Part shown: piece after piece, positions 28,971-38,016 of the stretch
Layout of the letters: the number at the start of each line of letters is the position of its first letter
Numbering within the stretch: position 1 is the first letter of the stretch
From: Streptomyces tardus
GTDB taxonomy: Bacteria; Actinomycetota; Actinomycetes; Streptomycetales; Streptomycetaceae
Length of the DNA stretch: 64,000 nt
Assembly: GCF_018101125.2 (NCBI RefSeq)
Contig: NZ_JAELVF020000004.1
Coordinates: forward strand, 558,001 to 622,000
Direction of reading: 5' to 3'
Translations under genes and position numbers: made by a program
Notes under the pieces: generated by a model
The model's database searches: none
Told to the model about the DNA's origin: nothing
What the model saw: only the letters and a program-made list of their open reading frames with translations

Positions 28971-29209
28971 CATCTCCCGGCAGCGCACCCGCTTCCCGAA
29001 CGCGTTCGGGAAGCGGGTGCGCTGCCGGGAGATGTCAGTAGCCCCGTACGTCGGGCCAGTGACGCTGTACTCCCTCCCGGTCCAACTGCCGGGCGAACTC
29101 GGCGAACCGCTGGTCCTCGGCCTGCACCTGGTGCGGTTCGGCGCCCTGGTCGAGGCAGTGCGCGGCCAGCGCGCCGGCGACCTCGCCGATGTTCCACTCG
29201 ACCGGGTGG
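28796..29209. repeat. 414-bp fold-back palindrome at the end of the FAD oxidoreductase gene
   Basis: Bases 28796-29002 and 29003-29209 are reverse complements (207-bp arms, no spacer) centred on AACG/CGTT. In addition 28808-28875 is repeated directly at 29206-29273 (68 bp). The centre lies 32 bp after the stop of the oxidoreductase. The structure separates this gene from hyuA, which it should adjoin. Confidence 0.85.
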
Positions 29210-29265
29210 AACATCGGCGAGGTCGCCGGCGCGCTGGCCGCGCACTGCCTCGACCAGGGCGCCGA

Positions 29266-29387
29266 ACCGCACCGGCCACGCCCGGAAAAGTTATCCACAG
29301 GACGACAGGCGCGCTGTGCACAAGTCGACTTGTGCACAGCGCGCCTGTCGTCCTGTGGATAACTTTTCCGGGCGTGGCCGGTGCGGT
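29266..29387. repeat. 122-bp perfect palindrome carrying DnaA-box-like 9-mers
   Basis: The 61-bp arms meet at CAAGTC/GACTTG (29326/29327). The sequence holds TTATCCACA at 29291-29299 with its complement at 29354-29362, and TTGTGCACA at 29330-29338 with its complement at 29315-29323. These are DnaA-box consensus or near-consensus 9-mers, unrelated to the flanking catabolic genes. They suggest a piece of an origin or dnaA/dnaN-type region was captured here. Confidence 0.8.
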
Positions 29388-29436
29388 CCTCACCCGCCGA
29401 CTCGCCGCCCTCGGCCGACGGTCCTGGATGTGGCCC

Positions 29437-29666
29437 TCGCAGTCGATCTCCTCCAGCAACCTGCCGAGTGCTTCCACGATGCCGTGTGCGACACCGTCTT
29501 CGTGGTGGTGGCTGGTGGGGACCTTCACCGACGCCGTGGCCGTCGACGCCGCAACGCTCGAACTGCTGGGCCAGGTGAAGGTCCCCACCAGCCACCACCA
29601 CGAAGACGGTGTCGCACACGGCATCGTGGAAGCACTCGGCAGGTTGCTGGAGGAGATCGACTGCGA
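29437..29666. repeat. Inverted repeat replacing the start of hyuA (93-bp arms, 44-bp spacer)
   Basis: Bases 29437-29529 are the reverse complement of 29574-29666. The inner end reads GGTGGGGACCTTCACC, which also fits the GGTFT motif expected at the start of hyuA, so an inverted microhomology could have driven the switch. A further 38-bp direct repeat links 29378-29415 to 29771-29808. Confidence 0.82.
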
Positions 29667-31617
29667 CCCGCAGGATGTCGCCTTCCTCGCCCACGGAACG
29701 ACCCAGGCGACCAACGCCCTGCTGGAGGGGGACGTCGCCACCACCGGTCTGATCGGCATCGGCACCGGACCCGGTGCGGTCCTCACCCGCCGACTCGCCG
29801 CCCTCGGCAAGCTCGAACTCACCCCGGGCAAACGGCTGCCGCTGGTCTACGCCCACGTTCCCGACCACCGCGACCGGGACGCGGTGGGGCAGGCGGCGGA
29901 CTCGCTGGTGCGGCAGGGCGCCGAAGTCCTGGTCGCCAGCGAACCGTTCAGCGTGGACCGGCCCGAGGGCGAGGAGGCCGTACTGGAGGCCGCACGCGGG
30001 CACGGGCTGCCGATGACCGCCGGGCACGAGATCACCTCGCTCTACGGGCTGCACAAGCGCACCCGCACCGCCGTCGTCAACGCGGCGATCCTGCCCCGGA
30101 TGCTCGCGACCGCCGATCTGGTGGACGCCTCCATCACCAGGGCCGGGGTGACCGCCCCGCTGATGGTGATGCGCTGCGACGGTGGCGTGATGTCGCTGGA
30201 CGAGATGCGTCGCCGTCCGCTGCTGACGATCCTGTCCGGCCCGGCGGCCGGGGTGGCGGGCGCGCTCATGCAGGAACGCATCAGCGAGGGGGTGTTCCTG
30301 GAGACGGGCGGGACGTCCACCGACATCAGCGTGGTACGCCGCGGCAAGGTCGCCGTCCAGCACGCCACGGTGCTGGGCAAGAAGTCCTACCTCAACGCGC
30401 TGGACGTCCGTACGGTCGGCGTCGGCGGTGGCTCCATGGTCCGCATCGGTGACGGCGCCAACCGCACTGTCACCGGCGTCGGACCGCGGAGCGCCCACAT
30501 CGCCGGACTGCCGTACGCCTGCTTCGCCTCCGTCGAGGAGCTGCGGGACGCCACGGTCGGCACCATCAGGCCGATGGCCGACGACCCGGCCGACTACGCC
30601 GTGCTCGACGCCGCCGGCGGCAGGTTCGCCATCACCATGACCTGCGCCGCCAACGCGCTCGGACTGGTCCCCGAGGGGGACTTCGCCCGCTGCGACCCGC
30701 AGGTGGCCAGGGCCGCGCTCGCACCGCTCGCCGCTCTGCTCGGTACGGACGTCGACGGGGCCGCGACGCAGCTGCTCGACGCGGGCGTCGAGCAGGTGAA
30801 GACGGTCGTCGACGCGATGGTCGGCGACTACCGGCTGGACGAGGACACCGCCGTACTCGTCGGCGGGGGCGGCGGTGCCGCCTCGGTCACCCCTCATCTG
30901 GCCCGGCTCACCGGCTTCGAGGGCCGTATCGCCCGGCACAGCGAGGTGATCAGCCCGATCGGTGTCGCCCTGGCGCTGGTCCGTGAGCAGATCGAGCGGA
31001 TCATCCCGGGCGCCGGCCAGGAACAGATCCTCGCGGTACGGGCCGAGGCGGAGGCCGCGGTCGTCGCCCAGGGAGCGGCGGCCGAGGGCGTCGAGGTCGA
31101 GGTCACCGTGGACCCGCAGACCAGCAAGGTCCGCGCGGTCGCCACCGGCGCCACGGAGTTGCGCACCCAGGACCGGGCACACCGGACGGACGACGGCGAG
31201 CGGTTGCGCAACGCCGCCGCCAGCCTCAAGACCGACGCCTCCGCCGTCGAGGTCCTCGCCGCCGCCGGGGCCCACACCGTGTACGGGACCGAGGTGCGCC
31301 GCCGACTGCGCGCCACCCGCCGCCCGGTACGGGTCGTGGACGCCGACGGAGTGGTGCGGCTGCATGTGGCGGACGCCCATGTGGAGTCCACCACGGTCGC
31401 CGACGCCCCGGGCGTACTGGCCCGGCTGGTGAAGGAGAAGACCTCCTACGGCGACGGCGGGGTACGGGCGCCGGCAGTACGGCTGTTGCTCGGCTCCCGG
31501 ATAGCGGACCTCTCCGGCGTACTGGAGCCCGAGCCGCTACTGGCCCTGGCGCGTGGGGAGTTGCGCTCGCGCGGCGGCGCCGAACCGGTGGTGGCGGTCG
31601 TGGAGGTGCGGTCGTGA
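29521..31617 (+). pseudogene. Hydantoinase/oxoprolinase subunit A (HyuA family), native 5' end missing
   Basis: From TFTDAVAVDAATLELLGQVK onward the frame encodes a full HyuA: HGTTQATNALLEG, HKRTRTAVVNAAILPRM, the ATP-binding-like SGPAAGVAGA and ETGGTSTDISVV, and a C-terminal GGGGGAASVTPHLARLTG. The expected first 10-15 residues (hydrophobic strand plus DVGG) are replaced by inverted-repeat sequence. The frame stays open upstream to 29017, so a fusion could be translated, but it would be artificial. HyuA enzymes hydrolyse lactams with ATP. If the junction is an assembly error the gene is intact. It overlaps the next gene by GTGA. Confidence 0.82.
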
Positions 31618-32210
31618 GCCCCGCGGGTCGGCCCGCCGGGCCGGCGCTGGAGGCCACCGCCGATCTGGACTTCGCGGTACGGCTGCTGGCCGCCACCCCG
31701 ACGCACGAGAGCCGTGACCCGCAGCTGCTCCGTCAATGGGCCCGGTGTGCCGACGGGTTCGGGGCCTCGCTGCCGAGGGTGGAGTTCACCTCCACGGTGG
31801 TGGAACGCGCCGACGGTCTCCAGCAGGGCCTGCTCGCGAGGTACCGCTCCCGCCCCACGCCCACCGTCGAACTGTTCACCGACACCCTGGCCGCCGCCGA
31901 GGAGCTGGTCGACCGGCGCGGCTGGCGGCACTGGTACCCACCGGGCTCGCTCCGCGCAGCCGCGCTCGCCCACGAGACCGTCCACGAGCGACTCCACCAC
32001 GGGCCCGAACGGCTCGCGCTCAAGCGGGAGTTGGGACATGTGCTGCTGCGCTGCGGCCGACTCCGGTGGTACGGCCATGTCGCGGGCGCCGAGGAGGTCG
32101 CCGCGCACGCGTACGCCCGCACCGTCTGCGGCCTGGGACGCAGCCCGCTGCTGCTGACCGCCGCGCTCGCCGAAGTCTTCACCCAGAAGGACACCCACAG
32201 AGAGAAGTAA
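31614..32210 (+). CDS. Hypothetical protein with HExxH motif
   Basis: I do not recognise this 198-residue protein as a named family. It contains HETVH at residues 120-124 inside AALAHETVHERLHHG, and about 36 residues later GAEEVAAHAYARTV, whose Glu160/161 could be the third ligand of a gluzincin-type zinc site, as in ImmA/IrrE-like peptidases. No signal peptide, so cytosolic. It starts with GTG overlapping the hyuA stop and is followed within 5 bases by the permease gene, so it is part of the operon. It might process a peptide or an N-acyl/amide substrate; that is speculation. Confidence 0.72.
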   Translation: MSPAGRPAGPALEATADLDFAVRLLAATPTHESRDPQLLRQWARCADGFGASLPRVEFTSTVVERADGLQQGLLARYRSRPTPTVELFTDTLAAAEELVDRRGWRHWYPPGSLRAAALAHETVHERLHHGPERLALKRELGHVLLRCGRLRWYGHVAGAEEVAAHAYARTVCGLGRSPLLLTAALAEVFTQKDTHREK

Positions 32211-32214
32211 CGTC

Positions 32215-33495
32215 ATGGGCGTTGTCATCCTGCTCATCATGGCGGTCGGAGTGGCCGCGATGCTGAGCCGCAAACTCCCCACCGCCTTCGCTCTGGTGGG
32301 TATGGCCGTCGCCATCGCGGTGGCCGCCGGAGCCGCGTTCTCCGGCGAGGAGAGCGTGCTGGACACGGTGCTCCAGGAGGGCGCGCCGATGCTCGCCTCG
32401 ACGATGATCGCGGTACTGCTCGGCTCCTGGCTCGGCAAACTGCTGGACGAGACGGGCGTCGCCTCGACCATCGTCCGCAAGATCGTCGAGTTCGGCGGTG
32501 ACCGGCCGACCGTGGTGGCCCTCGGTGTACTCGGCGTCTCCGCGCTCATCGGTACGGTGACGGGCTCGGCGCCGGCGGCGATGATGGCGGGCATCATCGG
32601 TATCCCCGCGATGATCGCGGTGGGCATCCCCAAGGTCACCGCGGCCGGCACCATCCTGATGGGCATCGCCGTCGGTGTGCCGTTCGAGCTGCCGATCTGG
32701 CAGTTCTTCTCCTCCGCACTGGATCTGTCGGTGCCGCAGGTCCGGTCGTTCATGGTGAAGCTGTTCCCGTTCGCGCTGGTCGCGGCGGTCGGTTACGTGC
32801 TGATCGAGACCCGGCGGCGCGGCGTCGAGCACGCCTGGGCCTTCAAGTCGGCCTCCGCCAAGCCGAGTTCGCGCCGCGAGCGGCTCGGTGACGCGCCCTG
32901 GTACGCGCTGCTCACCCCGGTCGTACCGCTGGTGCTGGCGCTCGGCTTCGAACTCGCGATCATCCCCTCGCTGCTCGCCGGCGTGCTGTACGGACTGGTC
33001 ACCACCACCAGGCCCCGGGACATGAACAAGCGGCTGCTGCGCACCCTCTACGGGGGCTTCAACGTGGCCGCGCCGCCGATCGCCCTGTTCATCGCGATCG
33101 GGATGCTGCTCGCGGCGGTCCAACTGCCCGGCGCCGTGGCGGCGTTGGAACCGCTGGTGAAGGCGGTCAGCCCGCAGAACCCGATCGTGTTCGTGCTGGT
33201 CTTCACCCTGCTGGTGCCGCTCTGCCTCTATCGCGGCCCGCTCAACATCTACGGCCTCGGGGCGGGTATAGCGGGCGTGCTGATCGCCGCCCAGATCTAT
33301 CCCGCGATGGCGGTGCTCGGCATCGCCGCCTCGTACAACCAGGTCTTCGGTGTGTCGGACCCGACCAGTACCCAGACGGTGTGGAGCGCCCAGTACGCGG
33401 GGGTGAGTCCGCAGCAGGTGATGGTGCGCACCCTGCCGTACGTCTGGACCGTCGCCCTGGGCGGCTTCGTCGTCACCGCCGCCACCTATCTGTGA
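32215..33495 (+). CDS. GntP/DcuC-like organic-acid permease
   Basis: The 426-residue protein has about 11-12 hydrophobic segments, beginning VVILLIMAVGVAAML. It has a re-entrant-looking SALIGTVTGSAPAAMMAGII and a second half with LFIAIGMLLAAVQLPGAV, the two-fold layout of ion-transporter superfamily permeases (GntP, DcuC, CitM). It probably imports the substrate of the LacI operon, with protons or sodium. It follows the HExxH gene by 4 bases. The exact family is uncertain. Confidence 0.78.
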   Translation: MGVVILLIMAVGVAAMLSRKLPTAFALVGMAVAIAVAAGAAFSGEESVLDTVLQEGAPMLASTMIAVLLGSWLGKLLDETGVASTIVRKIVEFGGDRPTVVALGVLGVSALIGTVTGSAPAAMMAGIIGIPAMIAVGIPKVTAAGTILMGIAVGVPFELPIWQFFSSALDLSVPQVRSFMVKLFPFALVAAVGYVLIETRRRGVEHAWAFKSASAKPSSRRERLGDAPWYALLTPVVPLVLALGFELAIIPSLLAGVLYGLVTTTRPRDMNKRLLRTLYGGFNVAAPPIALFIAIGMLLAAVQLPGAVAALEPLVKAVSPQNPIVFVLVFTLLVPLCLYRGPLNIYGLGAGIAGVLIAAQIYPAMAVLGIAASYNQVFGVSDPTSTQTVWSAQYAGVSPQQVMVRTLPYVWTVALGGFVVTAATYL

Positions 33496-33534: not shown

Positions 33535-34584
33535 TTGAACGAGCCGCGGCACCACCACACCGAGCAGTCCCCGCCCATGGCCGGCGTCAACCGCAGGAGC
33601 TTCCTGCGGGGGGCCGCCGCCACCGGCACCGTCCTCGCGGTCGGTACGGCGGTCGGCACCGCCATGACGTCCACAGCCGCCGCCGCGCCGGGCGGCTTCC
33701 CCGACTACAGGTACGCGAAGACGCTGCTGATCCCGTCGGAGCTGAAGTACCGGCCCACCGGCGAGATCATCTTCCCGTGTATCCGGGGCGTGTACGACCG
33801 GCTGTCCAACCCGCTGGGTCGCTACTACCTCTACTACGCGCCGCACGATCCGCCCGGCGGCATCTGCCTCGCCTACGGAGACTCCCTGGAAGGGCCGTTC
33901 ACCGAGTACCCGCACAACCCGATCGTCTCGAAGGACTGGCAGCCGCACTACAACGTCTCCCATGTCTCCTCGCCGCACGTGTTGTGGAACGAGGACGCGG
34001 GGGAGATGTGGCTCTACTTCCACGGCGAGAACCACACCACCCGTCTCGCCCGCTCCAAGGACGGCATCGACTTCACCTATGACCGGGTGGTGCTGGACAA
34101 GTCGATGCTCCCGAGCGGAACGCAGGAGACCTCCTACGCCCGGGTCTTCCGGTACGACCTGCCGGATCGCGGGGCGCGCTACGTCATGCTCTTCATGCGC
34201 AGACCCCAAGCCGACAACCGTGACATCGGCTGGGGTTGGTCCGCCGACGGACGGTCCTGGTCCTTCGCCCAGGAACCCCTCGTCCGGCACTCGGACGTCG
34301 GGATGCGGGACCTGAGCGGCCCGCATCTGCTGACCCGCAACGGCAGCGCGTATGTCGTCTACCACACCGACAAGGGCAGCGGCGGCAACCTGTTGATCAC
34401 CGAGGTCGGCCGTGACTTCTCCCGTCGCGAGCATCTCGGTGTCTTCCACGCCTCGATGGACGGCGGGCCCGACAACGGTCGCGTTGCCGCGCCGAGTTTC
34501 GGCACCGACAAGGGCGTGCCGTACATGGTGTACGAGGCGGGCGACCGGCTGAACGGGTCGATCGCGGTGGCCCGGGGGAGCTGA
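33535..34584 (+). CDS. Tat-exported beta-propeller protein (glycosidase-like fold)
   Basis: The 349-residue precursor has a Tat signal (NRRSFLRGAAATGTVLAVGT, cleavage after AAAA). The mature part repeats short Trp/Tyr-rich blades such as YYLYYAPHDPPGGICLAYGD, MWLYFHGENHTTRLARSKDG and IGWGWSADGRSWSF, the pattern of five-bladed GH43/GH32-like propellers. No definite catalytic triad is identified. The TTG start at 33535 follows GGAGAG. As the last gene of the LacI operon it may release or bind an extracellular carbohydrate. Confidence 0.8.
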   Translation: MNEPRHHHTEQSPPMAGVNRRSFLRGAAATGTVLAVGTAVGTAMTSTAAAAPGGFPDYRYAKTLLIPSELKYRPTGEIIFPCIRGVYDRLSNPLGRYYLYYAPHDPPGGICLAYGDSLEGPFTEYPHNPIVSKDWQPHYNVSHVSSPHVLWNEDAGEMWLYFHGENHTTRLARSKDGIDFTYDRVVLDKSMLPSGTQETSYARVFRYDLPDRGARYVMLFMRRPQADNRDIGWGWSADGRSWSFAQEPLVRHSDVGMRDLSGPHLLTRNGSAYVVYHTDKGSGGNLLITEVGRDFSRREHLGVFHASMDGGPDNGRVAAPSFGTDKGVPYMVYEAGDRLNGSIAVARGS

Positions 34585-34600
34585 GCAACGCCGTCGGAGG

Positions 34601-34692
34601 CGGCCGTCCACCTGCCGGGGAGGCGAGGGGACGGCCGCCCCCGTGCGCTGAGCGGCTCCGGGGCTCGCGGCCCTCTCAGGACCGCGAGCCCC
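34601..34692. terminator. Two hairpins between convergent genes
   Basis: CGGCCGTCC (34601-34609) pairs with 34629-34637, and GGGGCTCGCGG (34660-34670) pairs perfectly with 34682-34692. They separate the beta-propeller gene from the convergent papain-like gene and can terminate both. Confidence 0.65.
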
Positions 34693-34701
34693 GCGGTCGC
34701 C

Positions 34702-36732
34702 TCAGGACCGCGGGCCTTCGAGGGCTTGCAGCGATCCGGCCGGCAGCCGGTCGTTGCCCCAGCTGCGCTCGATGTAGCCGATGATCCGGGTGATGTCCTC
34801 GGCGGGCACCCGTTCCGGCTCACCGCGCTCCAGCGGGTCGGCGTGGAATATGTAGAGGCGGGAGGCGAACTGGTCGAACGGCAGCGACGCCTCGCCGAAC
34901 CGTTCGCCGTTGCCCGCCGTGGAGACGACGACACCGTCGCCCCAGTCCTGGCCGCTGTCGTTGTTCGGATTGAAGAAGTAGACCCGCATCACGTCCTGCG
35001 GGTCGGGTGCCGCCCGCAGGATCGTGATCGCGTGCCAGCCGACGTACCGGGCCGCACTGTCGGTGACGGCGACGCCGGCCGGCTGCGGATGGATCAGCGG
35101 CTGCTCGCCGTTGTACGACGGGTGGTAGCTGGCGTGGAACTGCCGCAGGAAGTCGTCGAGTTCGACCAGGTTCCCGGTCTCGACATCGACGTTGATGTGG
35201 AAACCGCGGCCCGTCCACCAGCCGTGGAACTCGGGGTTGACCCACCGGTGCGGGTCCCCGGGCCGCCCCGCGCAGCGGCGCCCCATTTCGGCGTATATCC
35301 GGTCCAGATGCGGTACCACCAGGAGCGACACCGGATCCAGGTCCGTCGGCAGCGTGCTCGCGACTCCGGAGGCGCTCTCCTTCGACGAGATCGGCTGGCC
35401 CTCGAAGTGCATGATGACCTCGTCGTCGCGGGCCGCCCAGACCACCATCTGGAGCAGATAGTCCGGGTCGTTGTACGACCACATCGACAGCGCCCGGGCC
35501 GACTGGCAGGTCGGGTTGTCGCCCTGGCCGACGCCGAGCGGCTGACCCAGCATCGAGAGCACCCCCGCGACCAGCCTCGCCCGCGGGTCCGGAACGTCGC
35601 CGAAGGCCGCTGTCAGCCGGTCCCGAGCGACGGGGGAGAGATCGAGCGCCAGCTGGCGCCAGAGCGCGGGCACGATCGGCGGCTCGTGCAGGATGCCGCG
35701 GTCGAGGAGCAGCGCGAGCCCGTAGACGCTCTGCGCGGTCTGCGGGTGTACGGAGACCTCGATGAGCCGGTGCACCAGCTCGCTGTAGCGCAGCAGACAG
35801 TTCCGGCCGGTGTCGGACAGGCCGAGGGCTTCAGCGAGGAGGTAGTCGCTCTCGCGCAGGAGGAACCGGAGCAGCTGCGCGTGGTACGGCGACACCAGGC
35901 CGGTGTCGTGCATCGCCCGGGCGAACCCCGACGCCTCGTACTGCAGACCGCCGGCGTCCATGGCCTCGAGCCGGGAGTGGAAGACGTCGAAGCCGGGGTC
36001 CTCCCGGCACGCCTCGGTGGTCCCGAAGAGGCTGGTGATCAGCCGGTCGATGCCCTGCCCCGACGAGACGCCGAGCGCGACGTCCGGGTCGTTGCGGTAG
36101 ACCGCGATACGGGTGATCAGGGACTGCACGTCCTCGACCTGGATCGGGCGCTGCCGCAGGATCCGCCAGATCTCGTCGACCAGGTTGTCCAGGATGCTGT
36201 CGTAGCCGATCTCGTCGGCGAGGTGGCGGAACAGGTCACGGACGAGCTCCGCGGTCCGGCCGTCCCGGGCCCGCTCCGCCTCGCTGATCGGAGCGAAGAG
36301 CAGCTCCAGGTTGGTCGCCAGCACCTGGGACAGGAAGAGGCGGGCGTCCTCGGCGGAGAGTGTCGGGTGCGCGAAGTCGCCACGGGCGACGGCCAGCATG
36401 CGAAGCTCGCTGGCCGCCTCCATGACGACGGTGTCCGCGTCCCCGCTGTGCAGACTCGGCCCCACCAGCGAAGGTATGAGGATCTCCGGAGAGGCCCAGT
36501 CGGTCTCGAGGAAGACTCCGGCTTCCTCGAGGGCCTGCGCCCTGCTCTGGACTGCGGCGGCGCCGCCCTGCTGCAGGAGTACCCGCCGCAGGGCTTCCAG
36601 GACCCGTCGCAGCTTCGTGTGCTTGCCGAAGTCGCGGGTTTCGGCCATGGCCCGGATGGCGTCGTCGAGTGAGGCCACGCGCTTGCCGAGTCGCGCAGCC
36701 TCACTGTTGACGTTGTCGACGGTCGGTTCCAA
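34702..36732 (-). CDS. Large uncharacterised protein with papain-like cysteine peptidase signature
   Basis: I do not recognise the full-length family. Residues 1-380 are mostly helical with no known motif. The C-terminal third carries an ordered papain-type signature: Gln403 and Cys409 in VGQGDNPTCQSARALSMW (Gln six residues before Cys, as the oxyanion Gln19/Cys25 of papain), His567 in YVGWHAITIL, and Asn588 in YFFNPNNDSGQDWGDG, which recalls the NSWG..WG box. It may therefore be a cysteine peptidase, transpeptidase or amidase. No signal peptide, so cytosolic. It lies 42 bp after the ATP-grasp gene in a two-gene operon, pairing a ligase with a putative amide-cleaving enzyme. Confidence 0.75.
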   Translation of the reverse strand: MEPTVDNVNSEAARLGKRVASLDDAIRAMAETRDFGKHTKLRRVLEALRRVLLQQGGAAAVQSRAQALEEAGVFLETDWASPEILIPSLVGPSLHSGDADTVVMEAASELRMLAVARGDFAHPTLSAEDARLFLSQVLATNLELLFAPISEAERARDGRTAELVRDLFRHLADEIGYDSILDNLVDEIWRILRQRPIQVEDVQSLITRIAVYRNDPDVALGVSSGQGIDRLITSLFGTTEACREDPGFDVFHSRLEAMDAGGLQYEASGFARAMHDTGLVSPYHAQLLRFLLRESDYLLAEALGLSDTGRNCLLRYSELVHRLIEVSVHPQTAQSVYGLALLLDRGILHEPPIVPALWRQLALDLSPVARDRLTAAFGDVPDPRARLVAGVLSMLGQPLGVGQGDNPTCQSARALSMWSYNDPDYLLQMVVWAARDDEVIMHFEGQPISSKESASGVASTLPTDLDPVSLLVVPHLDRIYAEMGRRCAGRPGDPHRWVNPEFHGWWTGRGFHINVDVETGNLVELDDFLRQFHASYHPSYNGEQPLIHPQPAGVAVTDSAARYVGWHAITILRAAPDPQDVMRVYFFNPNNDSGQDWGDGVVVSTAGNGERFGEASLPFDQFASRLYIFHADPLERGEPERVPAEDITRIIGYIERSWGNDRLPAGSLQALEGPRS

Positions 36733-36774
36733 AAGGGGCTTCCCTCGATCAGGTCTTCTGCGTCCGCGAGGTCG

Positions 36775-38016
36775 TCAGACGTAGAAGTCGAGCTCTTCCT
36801 GCTGCTTCAACAGGTCGCGCATGCGGTAGGGGTCCTCACCGAAGAAGTACACCAGACCCCAGTGGGTGCCGAACGCAGTCCTCTTGGTGACAGTCTCCTC
36901 CACCGGCTTCGAGAGGTCGTGCGACTCGTAGTAGTCGTCGTCCTCCGTCTGCTCCGGGATCCGCAGGTCGCTGACGACGCGGCGGCGCGGGTAGACACCG
37001 AAGCAGCCGGCGACTCCGGACGCGTCGACGACCTCGCGGGGGAAGAAGGCGTCGATCTCCTCCTCCGTCGTCTTCGGGTCGAAGGCCAGCACGAGGCCAT
37101 GGTAGGCGTTGAATCCGTACGCCCGCTCCAGGAGCTCGAACACCTTGAAGCCCGGTGGCCGGTAGGCGACTTCGCCGAAGTACATCTCTCCGTCACTGGT
37201 GACGAAATACTCCGGGTGCACGAATCCGAACTCGATGTCGAACGCCTTGATGAGCTTTTCGATCTGAGCGGTGATCTGCGGGCGGTACCGCTCCAGCTCC
37301 GGGGTCGCGGGTACGAAGACCGAGTACCCCAGCGTGACGTACTCGGAGATGTTGAGGAACTTGATTTTTCCGTTGTGCACCCACGCCTCGACTGCGAACT
37401 CCCAGCCGTCGAGGTGGGACTCCATGAGGACCGGGAACTCTTCTTCCGGGATCGTGTCGACCTCGTCCGGTGTGCGGATGACGCGGTGCCCGAGGCATCC
37501 TGCTTTGTCGAACGCCTTGAGATGGATGGGGTCGTTCGGGTCACCGTCGAGCTTGAGCAGCGTCTGATTGACGCGCTTGAGGAAGCGGATGACGTCGTCC
37601 CGGTCGTGCGCCTCCTCGAAGATCCCGACACGGATGCCGCCGAGCTGTGCGCGGCGTTTCATCAGCGCCTTGTCCCGCAGCAGCATGGCCTGTCCGTACA
37701 GGCGGGGATCTTCCAACAGCACCGAGTTGATCGCCCCGGCCCATTCCACGGTTTCCTCGAACAACGGGATCGCGACGTCGACGCCCTCCTTCTGGAGGGT
37801 TTCGGCAATCTCCATGGAGCGGTCATTGAGCCGTTCGAAATTCCACGGGACGTAGGGGATGTCGTGCTCAACGCAGTACTCCTCGGCCCATTCCGGCGCC
37901 ACGACGATGTATCTGCGGTCGAACCGGTCGAGCGCTTCCACTGCGGCGAGGCTCCAGCCGAGAAGCGCCACGTATCCTTTGTCGGGATTTCTGGTGCCCA
38001 GTTCGCGCTCCGGCAT
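36775..38016 (-). CDS. ATP-grasp family ligase
   Basis: The 413-residue protein has a Rossmann-like N-terminal domain (YVALLGWSLAAVEALDRFDR) and an ATP-grasp core with EFPVLMESHLDGWEFAVEAW, HNGKIKFLNISEYVTLG, and the metal-binding FGEVAYRPPGFKVFELLERA near residue 285, as in carboxylate-amine ligases of the carnosine-synthase or BL00235 type. It should join an acid to an amine through an acyl-phosphate. AGGAGAA precedes the ATG at 38014-38016. The downstream partner is the papain-like protein. No obvious precursor peptide is adjacent, so the substrate may be a small molecule or a diffusible peptide. Confidence 0.9.
   Translation of the reverse strand: MPERELGTRNPDKGYVALLGWSLAAVEALDRFDRRYIVVAPEWAEEYCVEHDIPYVPWNFERLNDRSMEIAETLQKEGVDVAIPLFEETVEWAGAINSVLLEDPRLYGQAMLLRDKALMKRRAQLGGIRVGIFEEAHDRDDVIRFLKRVNQTLLKLDGDPNDPIHLKAFDKAGCLGHRVIRTPDEVDTIPEEEFPVLMESHLDGWEFAVEAWVHNGKIKFLNISEYVTLGYSVFVPATPELERYRPQITAQIEKLIKAFDIEFGFVHPEYFVTSDGEMYFGEVAYRPPGFKVFELLERAYGFNAYHGLVLAFDPKTTEEEIDAFFPREVVDASGVAGCFGVYPRRRVVSDLRIPEQTEDDDYYESHDLSKPVEETVTKRTAFGTHWGLVYFFGEDPYRMRDLLKQQEELDFYV

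Follow-up and report, generated by a model that had tools for sequence, protein, structure and literature searches.

What might an ATP-grasp ligase and a protein of no recognised family be doing together in one operon? The question is raised by two adjoining genes in a 64,000-nucleotide stretch of the Streptomyces tardus genome (contig NZ_JAELVF020000004.1, positions 558,001 to 622,000; the whole stretch is called the window, and positions are numbered within it). A preliminary description made from the sequence gave the positions of the two open reading frames and the 42-bp gap between them, and both frames were found there. The ligase gene lies 5' and the gene for a 676-residue protein 3'. 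The pairing of the two genes is real, the C-terminal domain of the 676-residue protein has a predicted papain-superfamily fold, and its presumed catalytic residues are invariant. Our preferred reading, to which we give a probability of roughly 0.4, is a two-enzyme cytosolic module in which the ligase would make an amide and the papain-like enzyme would transfer or cleave it through a cysteine thioester. The features needed for the argument are listed here.

36775..38016, minus strand: ATP-grasp ligase gene (P0002), 413 residues, ATG start, perhaps closest to ATP-grasp_4 and the L-amino acid ligases
34702..36732, minus strand: papain-like protein gene (P0001), 676 residues, TTG start, product probably cytosolic
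35593..36732, minus strand: helical N-terminal part, about residues 1–380, from the secondary structure of the AlphaFold2 (AF2) model
34705..35610, minus strand: predicted C-terminal papain-like domain, residues 375–676, from the AF2 model and papain-superfamily matches
35524..35526, minus strand: codon of Gln403, presumed oxyanion-hole position, 138/138 homologues
35506..35508, minus strand: codon of Cys409, presumed nucleophile, 138/138 homologues
35032..35034, minus strand: codon of His567, in a central strand, 138/138 homologues
34969..34971, minus strand: codon of Asn588, directly past the next strand, 138/138 homologues
36778..36789, minus strand: codons of the invariant ligase tail DFYV (DFYV in 99 and DFYI in 16 of 116 rows)

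The papain-like domain and its presumed catalytic residues

The 676-residue protein had been described as lacking a recognised family, and the library searches agree. It had no match in Pfam or NCBIfam up to an E value of 1, and neither it nor the ligase matched the PADLOC defence models at an E value of 0.1, a result on which a known anti-phage defence system was rejected. A sequence search of the PDB with the protein, alone or as a profile of 20 homologues, gave chance-level matches only. Its highest 19-residue mean hydropathy is 1.38, and the protein is probably cytosolic. The full-length AF2 model has a predicted local distance difference test score (pLDDT) of 73 and a predicted template modelling score (pTM) of 0.59, and its secondary structure contains the helical N-terminal part of about 380 residues that had been proposed. 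Foldseek gave no clear match for the full-length model. The VIA list for this model consisted mostly of helical proteins, with calpain-3 at Z 5.2, and the C-terminal domain was therefore modelled alone.

The C-terminal 302 residues, modelled by AF2 from 89 sequences, reached a pLDDT of 82.9 and a pTM of 0.81. Enzymes of the papain superfamily make up 49 of the best 50 of 305 Foldseek rows (E up to 10) and all of the best 50 of 286 VIA rows (Z at least 2). The top Foldseek match was calpain-3 at an E value of 3.6e-3, and none reaches 0.001. The VIA alignments include calpain 3bow (Z 8.0, 208 residues, 4.8 Å), staphopain 1y4h (Z 7.0, 136 residues, 3.8 Å), and phytochelatin synthase 2bu3 (Z 6.8, 145 residues, 3.8 Å); VIA takes its candidates from the Foldseek list and scores them anew, and by its own warning a Z of 7 to 8 may reflect a common arrangement. 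The papain fold is convincing because the VIA list is uniform. The domain model and the structure matches thus agree with the papain-like character first proposed for the C-terminal part.

The catalytic elements read from the sequence, Gln403-x5-Cys409, His567, Asn588, and GQDWGDG, are present as described. A helix of the domain model begins at its residue 35, which is Cys409, His567 lies in strand 189–202 (residues 563–576), and Asn588 directly follows strand 208–213 (residues 582–587). A cysteine at a helix start, a histidine in a strand, and an asparagine right after the next strand is the arrangement of papain. If the alignments are assumed to start without gaps, Cys409 coincides with the catalytic cysteines of ficin (residue 25) and staphopain (residue 24) and lands one position before Cys70 of 2bu3. 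The calpain alignment rows begin further upstream, and a gap is needed to match Cys409 to their catalytic cysteine.

The homologue set was reduced from 156 papain-like and 133 ligase matches to 138 and 116 distinct rows; four of the dropped ligase rows were too short, and the rest were identical copies. Conservation was counted over the 138 distinct papain-like homologues, each at least 600 residues long. Gln403, Cys409, His567, Asn588, and Gly598 are each identical in 138/138 homologues and Trp597 in 137/138. The preliminary description had staked its reading on homologues keeping the catalytic residues, and the four are unchanged throughout, including in papain-like copies without a ligase gene nearby. 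The remaining cysteines of the window protein (Cys242, Cys312, and Cys487) are variable. Mean identity to the window protein is 78% in the C-terminal part versus 63% in the helical N-terminal part. The lowest C-terminal identity among the homologues is 58%, so the conservation test spans moderate, not extreme, divergence.

Pairing, distribution, and surplus papain-like copies

The first 84 loci comprised the 80 top-ranking genome hits, out of 568 or more that were confirmed, and four from sampled genomes, the window genome included. All 84 contain a ligase gene, whole or partial. Among the 138 papain-like rows, 111 have a same-strand ligase no more than 800 bp away (107 with the ligase first and 4 with it second), 5 have a different arrangement, and 22 have no full ligase row in the fetched stretch. 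Four of these 22 have a partial or broken ligase (L003, L041, L075, and L128), the ligase of one (L071) is an excluded duplicate, and 17 have none. The sample of 151 Halomonadaceae genomes, in which ligase presence was called at an E value of 1e-60 or better, divides into 98 with both genes, 51 with neither, 2 with a papain-like remnant only, and none with the ligase only (papain-like gene in 100/151, ligase in 98/151). The two remnants, in G428 and G513, are short. At least five of these 98 genomes (G459, G481, G497, G529, and G535) have the genes on different contigs or more than 1 megabase apart. They keep both members of an unlinked pair, and joint retention thus needs more than linkage to explain it. 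Their ligase is of a lower-scoring type. In G412, G428, G513, G518, and G537 the module is broken up, split, or reduced to a remnant, through loss or assembly error.

Elsewhere, the same 4 of 396 Actinomycetota genomes carry the papain-like gene and the ligase. The papain-like gene occurs in 11 of 398 Pseudomonadota genomes, six of which are also in the Halomonadaceae sample, and the module is rare in Streptomyces, with 3 of 199 genomes, that of the window included. The order to which G284 belongs has the papain-like gene in 3 of 148 genomes; these copies are 49–50% identical to the window protein, yet adjoin a ligase that is 76–79% identical to that of the window. The conserved partnership with the ATP-grasp gene that had been suspected is therefore borne out by the 84 loci, the 98 Halomonadaceae genomes, and the four Actinomycetota genomes.

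Strict pairing of the genes would also suit a glutaminase, in which the papain-like protein would feed ammonia to the ATP-grasp enzyme, which would amidate a carboxylate. Papain-fold glutamine deamidases are described (PMC10318531). A channel between the subunits would be needed, yet papain-like copies occur far from ligase genes, and the 380-residue helical part is left unexplained. We regard a glutaminase as very unlikely.

Some papain-like copies stand without a ligase: the catalytic residues are intact and no ligase gene is present in the fetched 7–18 kb at L118, L132, L136–L143, L145, L146, L148, L150, L152, L153, and L155. A midpoint-rooted tree was built from 62 of the 138 papain-like rows, with the longest rows, L004 and L120, of unsure place. 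The window copy and those of other named actinobacteria fall inside a supported group of 36 with gammaproteobacterial operon copies. This shared grouping suggests that the module may have moved between phyla. A supported group of 23 paralogues stands apart; a second-type ligase, 73–76% identical to that of the window, lies near five of the seven members of one subgroup and two of the sixteen of the other, and the remaining sixteen of the 23 have no second-type ligase in the fetched stretch. Full papain-like genes number up to three per genome, and ligases one or two. Because most paralogues have no ligase nearby, the one or two ligases would serve up to three papain-like genes.

Such a surplus, with several copies away from any ligase, could mean reversible protein tagging. 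A cellular protein would receive an amino acid or small acyl unit from the ligase and lose it again to the papain-like paralogues, each with a target of its own, much as tubulin tyrosine ligase is paired with vasohibin. The ligase changes about half as fast as its partner, as if bound to a conserved target, and the helical N-terminal part is a further feature in favor of tagging. The sporadic occurrence, exemplified by the 3 of 199 Streptomyces genomes, argues against a house-keeping target. Tagging accounts for the paralogues about as well as ligation followed by transfer does, and overall we consider it possible but somewhat unlikely.

The ligase, its tail, and the surrounding DNA

The Pfam ATP-grasp_4 match of the ligase has an E value of 1.5e-5 and 25.2 bits, slightly below the curated cut-off of 27, and PRK07206 matches at 5e-6, far under its own cut-off. 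Judged by the significant profile match, the 413-residue protein is a member of the ATP-grasp superfamily. A ligase profile searched against the PDB found 3vot, an L-amino acid ligase (E 0.0017), 4dim, a phosphoribosylglycinamide synthetase (0.0025), and 4wd3, a ligase (0.0058); the synthetase is thus nearly as close as the best L-amino acid ligase. Lys167, Glu282, and Arg286 are invariant among the homologues. The usual metal-site form of ATP-grasp enzymes is E-x-N-x-R. The corresponding stretch is E-V-A-Y-R in the window ligase, E-V-G-A-R in 3vot, and E-I-A-M-R in 4wd3. The missing asparagine is no sign of a dead enzyme, because the aligned 3vot also lacks it. The ligase probably builds amide bonds, and it evolves at about half the rate of the papain-like partner.

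The ligase ends in DFYV in 99 of the 116 rows and in DFYI in 16, with zero residues beyond in any. The one remaining row runs off the edge of its locus and lies wholly within another; since it is incomplete, the flush end holds for all 115 complete distinct ligases. The ligase N-terminus and both ends of the papain-like partner are ragged by contrast. The invariant tail could serve in docking to the partner, in closing the active site, or as a substrate. In one reading the ligase itself is the substrate or working partner of the papain-like protein, whose active site would dock, clip, or conjugate the tail in a regulated complex. The flush end beside ragged ones speaks for such a complex, but a conserved tail could simply close the ligase's own active site, and we think a tail-directed partner unlikely. 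More doubtful still is a miniature conjugation system in which the tail is recognized or conjugated and the operon-encoded and dispersed papain-like enzymes join it to various partners or free it from them. It would parallel ubiquitin-type ligation and de-ubiquitination but use unrelated ligase folds.

Neighbouring genes were called with a crude open reading frame (ORF) script. The most widespread neighbour families besides the pair each reach 9 of the 84 first loci. Across 40 loci from Halomonadaceae and other Pseudomonadota the best neighbour group reaches 7, possibly lumped by single linkage, and its L141 member is an ATP-binding cassette (ABC) ATPase with CBS domains. A Pfam scan of 30 neighbours revealed no shared pathway. 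With no other conserved neighbour, the two enzymes therefore seem to suffice. Small ORFs of 15–120 residues were sought 1.2 kb upstream and 1 kb downstream, with both genes excluded. The conserved small ORF envisaged in the preliminary description did not emerge: the 12 largest groups listed (at most 12 loci each) all stay within Halomonadaceae and seem to reflect flanking DNA that these loci share, and none of them is a conserved precursor peptide. A graspetide or other ribosomally synthesized and post-translationally modified peptide system was set aside on this result. Phage records contain no match for the module, and none of 83 pattern hits in viral contigs was confirmed.

The gene count also bears on the idea that the ligase makes a small cysteine-protease inhibitor, with the papain-like protein as its target, sink, or resistance factor. 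One report describes an E-64 pathway, conserved in fungi and independent of non-ribosomal peptide synthetases, with ATP-grasp enzymes (PMC12568646), and the partner here is papain-like. E-64 requires an epoxidized acid, and no third gene is conserved at these loci, which makes an inhibitor pathway highly improbable.

An upstream stretch that recurs in 11 halomonad loci holds a GCACTATAACAG-like motif common to them, within otherwise variable DNA. The motif lies about 100–200 bp before the ligase start in L064, L076, L090, L092, and other halomonad loci; it looks regulatory and is perhaps a promoter. A few kb from a papain-like paralogue, L141, L148, and L150 have genes that fall in the group of a glycine-betaine-type ABC transporter (Pfam was run on L141 only). 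Many carriers of the module are halophiles. The glycine-betaine-type ABC operon near a paralogue and the halophile carriers together hint at a link to salt, which we do not claim.

The TTG start of the 676-residue protein aligns with the start (MKPT...) of several relatives. The flanking terminator proposed for the operon is the weak point of the description: past the papain-like stop codon there are two inverted repeats, and a scan for T-run terminators found none there.

34595..34700, no strand assigned: two GC-rich inverted repeats between convergent genes, without a T-run (arms 34652–34674/34678–34700 and 34595–34616/34622–34643)
33535..34584, plus strand: convergent neighbour with a twin-arginine-like start (NRRSFLRGAAATG), judged by eye to resemble a secreted beta-propeller glycoside hydrolase
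29017..33495, plus strand: hydantoinase/oxoprolinase-like ORF and permease-like ORF, both judged by eye

Proposed ligation followed by transfer or cleavage, and comparison with known systems

The pair is retained with no further conserved gene, and ligation followed by transfer or cleavage is the simplest scheme for it. The ATP-grasp protein would activate a carboxylate with ATP and join it to an amine, as its family suggests and as L-amino acid ligases do. The helical N-terminal part of the papain-like enzyme may recognize the product, or a partner carrying it. Cys409 would then attack the new amide, with His567 as base, Asn588 orienting it, and Gln403 in the oxyanion hole, and the resulting thioester would hand its acyl group to water or a second acceptor. 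The starting points are the predicted fold, the invariant catalytic set, the conserved pairing, and the presence in two phyla; the chemistry, the order of steps, and the acceptor are what we infer.

Several points weigh against this scheme. Kinship to the papain superfamily is distant, because the best Foldseek E value is only 3.6e-3 and the best Z 8.0. The loci compared have no carrier, transporter, or biosynthetic gene in common. Papain-like copies exceed ligase copies in several genomes, a surplus that fits a de-conjugating or differently targeted enzyme set as well as a metabolite pathway. In two of the 98 Halomonadaceae genomes with both genes, one member looks damaged: stop codons interrupt the ligase of G412, next to an open papain-like gene, and in G537 the ligase is open but the adjacent papain-like gene is split into four pieces. 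Finally, the evolutionary distances of the two proteins correlate at r 0.89, as co-inheritance alone would give.

The papain-like family is uncharacterized, has no match in the searched Pfam and NCBIfam libraries, and is closely partnered with a probable amide ligase. The module spans Actinomycetota and Pseudomonadota, and about two thirds of the sampled Halomonadaceae genomes carry both genes. A literature search found no description of the pair, although a likely relevant survey was not covered, so absence from print is not shown. Either outcome, a peptide-derived metabolite or a protein modification, would be new, and expressing the two genes would be enough to find out.

The papain superfamily (the calpain core, staphopain, and bleomycin hydrolase) shares the predicted fold, the Gln-Cys-His-Asn order, and the Gln-x5-Cys spacing. 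The window protein differs in having no PDB or Pfam sequence match, an extra 380-residue helical part, and a tie to an ATP-grasp ligase. The L-amino acid ligases BL00235 (3vot) and 4wd3 share with the window ligase the ATP-grasp match and a metal site without the usual asparagine. Their E values are only 0.0017 and 0.0058, the window ligase's own family is 73–99% identical to it in the loci seen, and the window ligase is paired with a papain-like partner.

In butirosin synthesis, BtrJ and BtrH act in one pathway. Two reports (PMC10318531, PMC4431377) describe BtrH as a papain-like acyltransferase and BtrJ as an ATP-grasp enzyme, and to that extent the combination of enzymes is the same. No acyl-carrier gene is conserved beside the relatives of the window pair. 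A BtrH-type acyltransferase (PF14399) was rejected, with no profile match for the window protein or the 89 domain sequences, and local hhalign runs against eight BtrH_N-type proteins gave probabilities of 0.2–0.3%; the alignments were thin and no positive control was included.

Phytochelatin synthase (Alr0975, 2bu3) differs in size and context, and has an aspartate where the window protein has asparagine. Membership in its family (PF05023) was rejected, as the window protein had no match up to an E value of 1 and the 89 domain sequences none up to 10. The likeness lies in a papain-like domain and in a ligase product handed to a thioester-forming enzyme, since phytochelatin synthase works on the product of the ATP-grasp ligase glutathione synthetase. 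By this analogy, the module would follow the logic of glutathione synthetase and then phytochelatin synthase, but on a different substrate.

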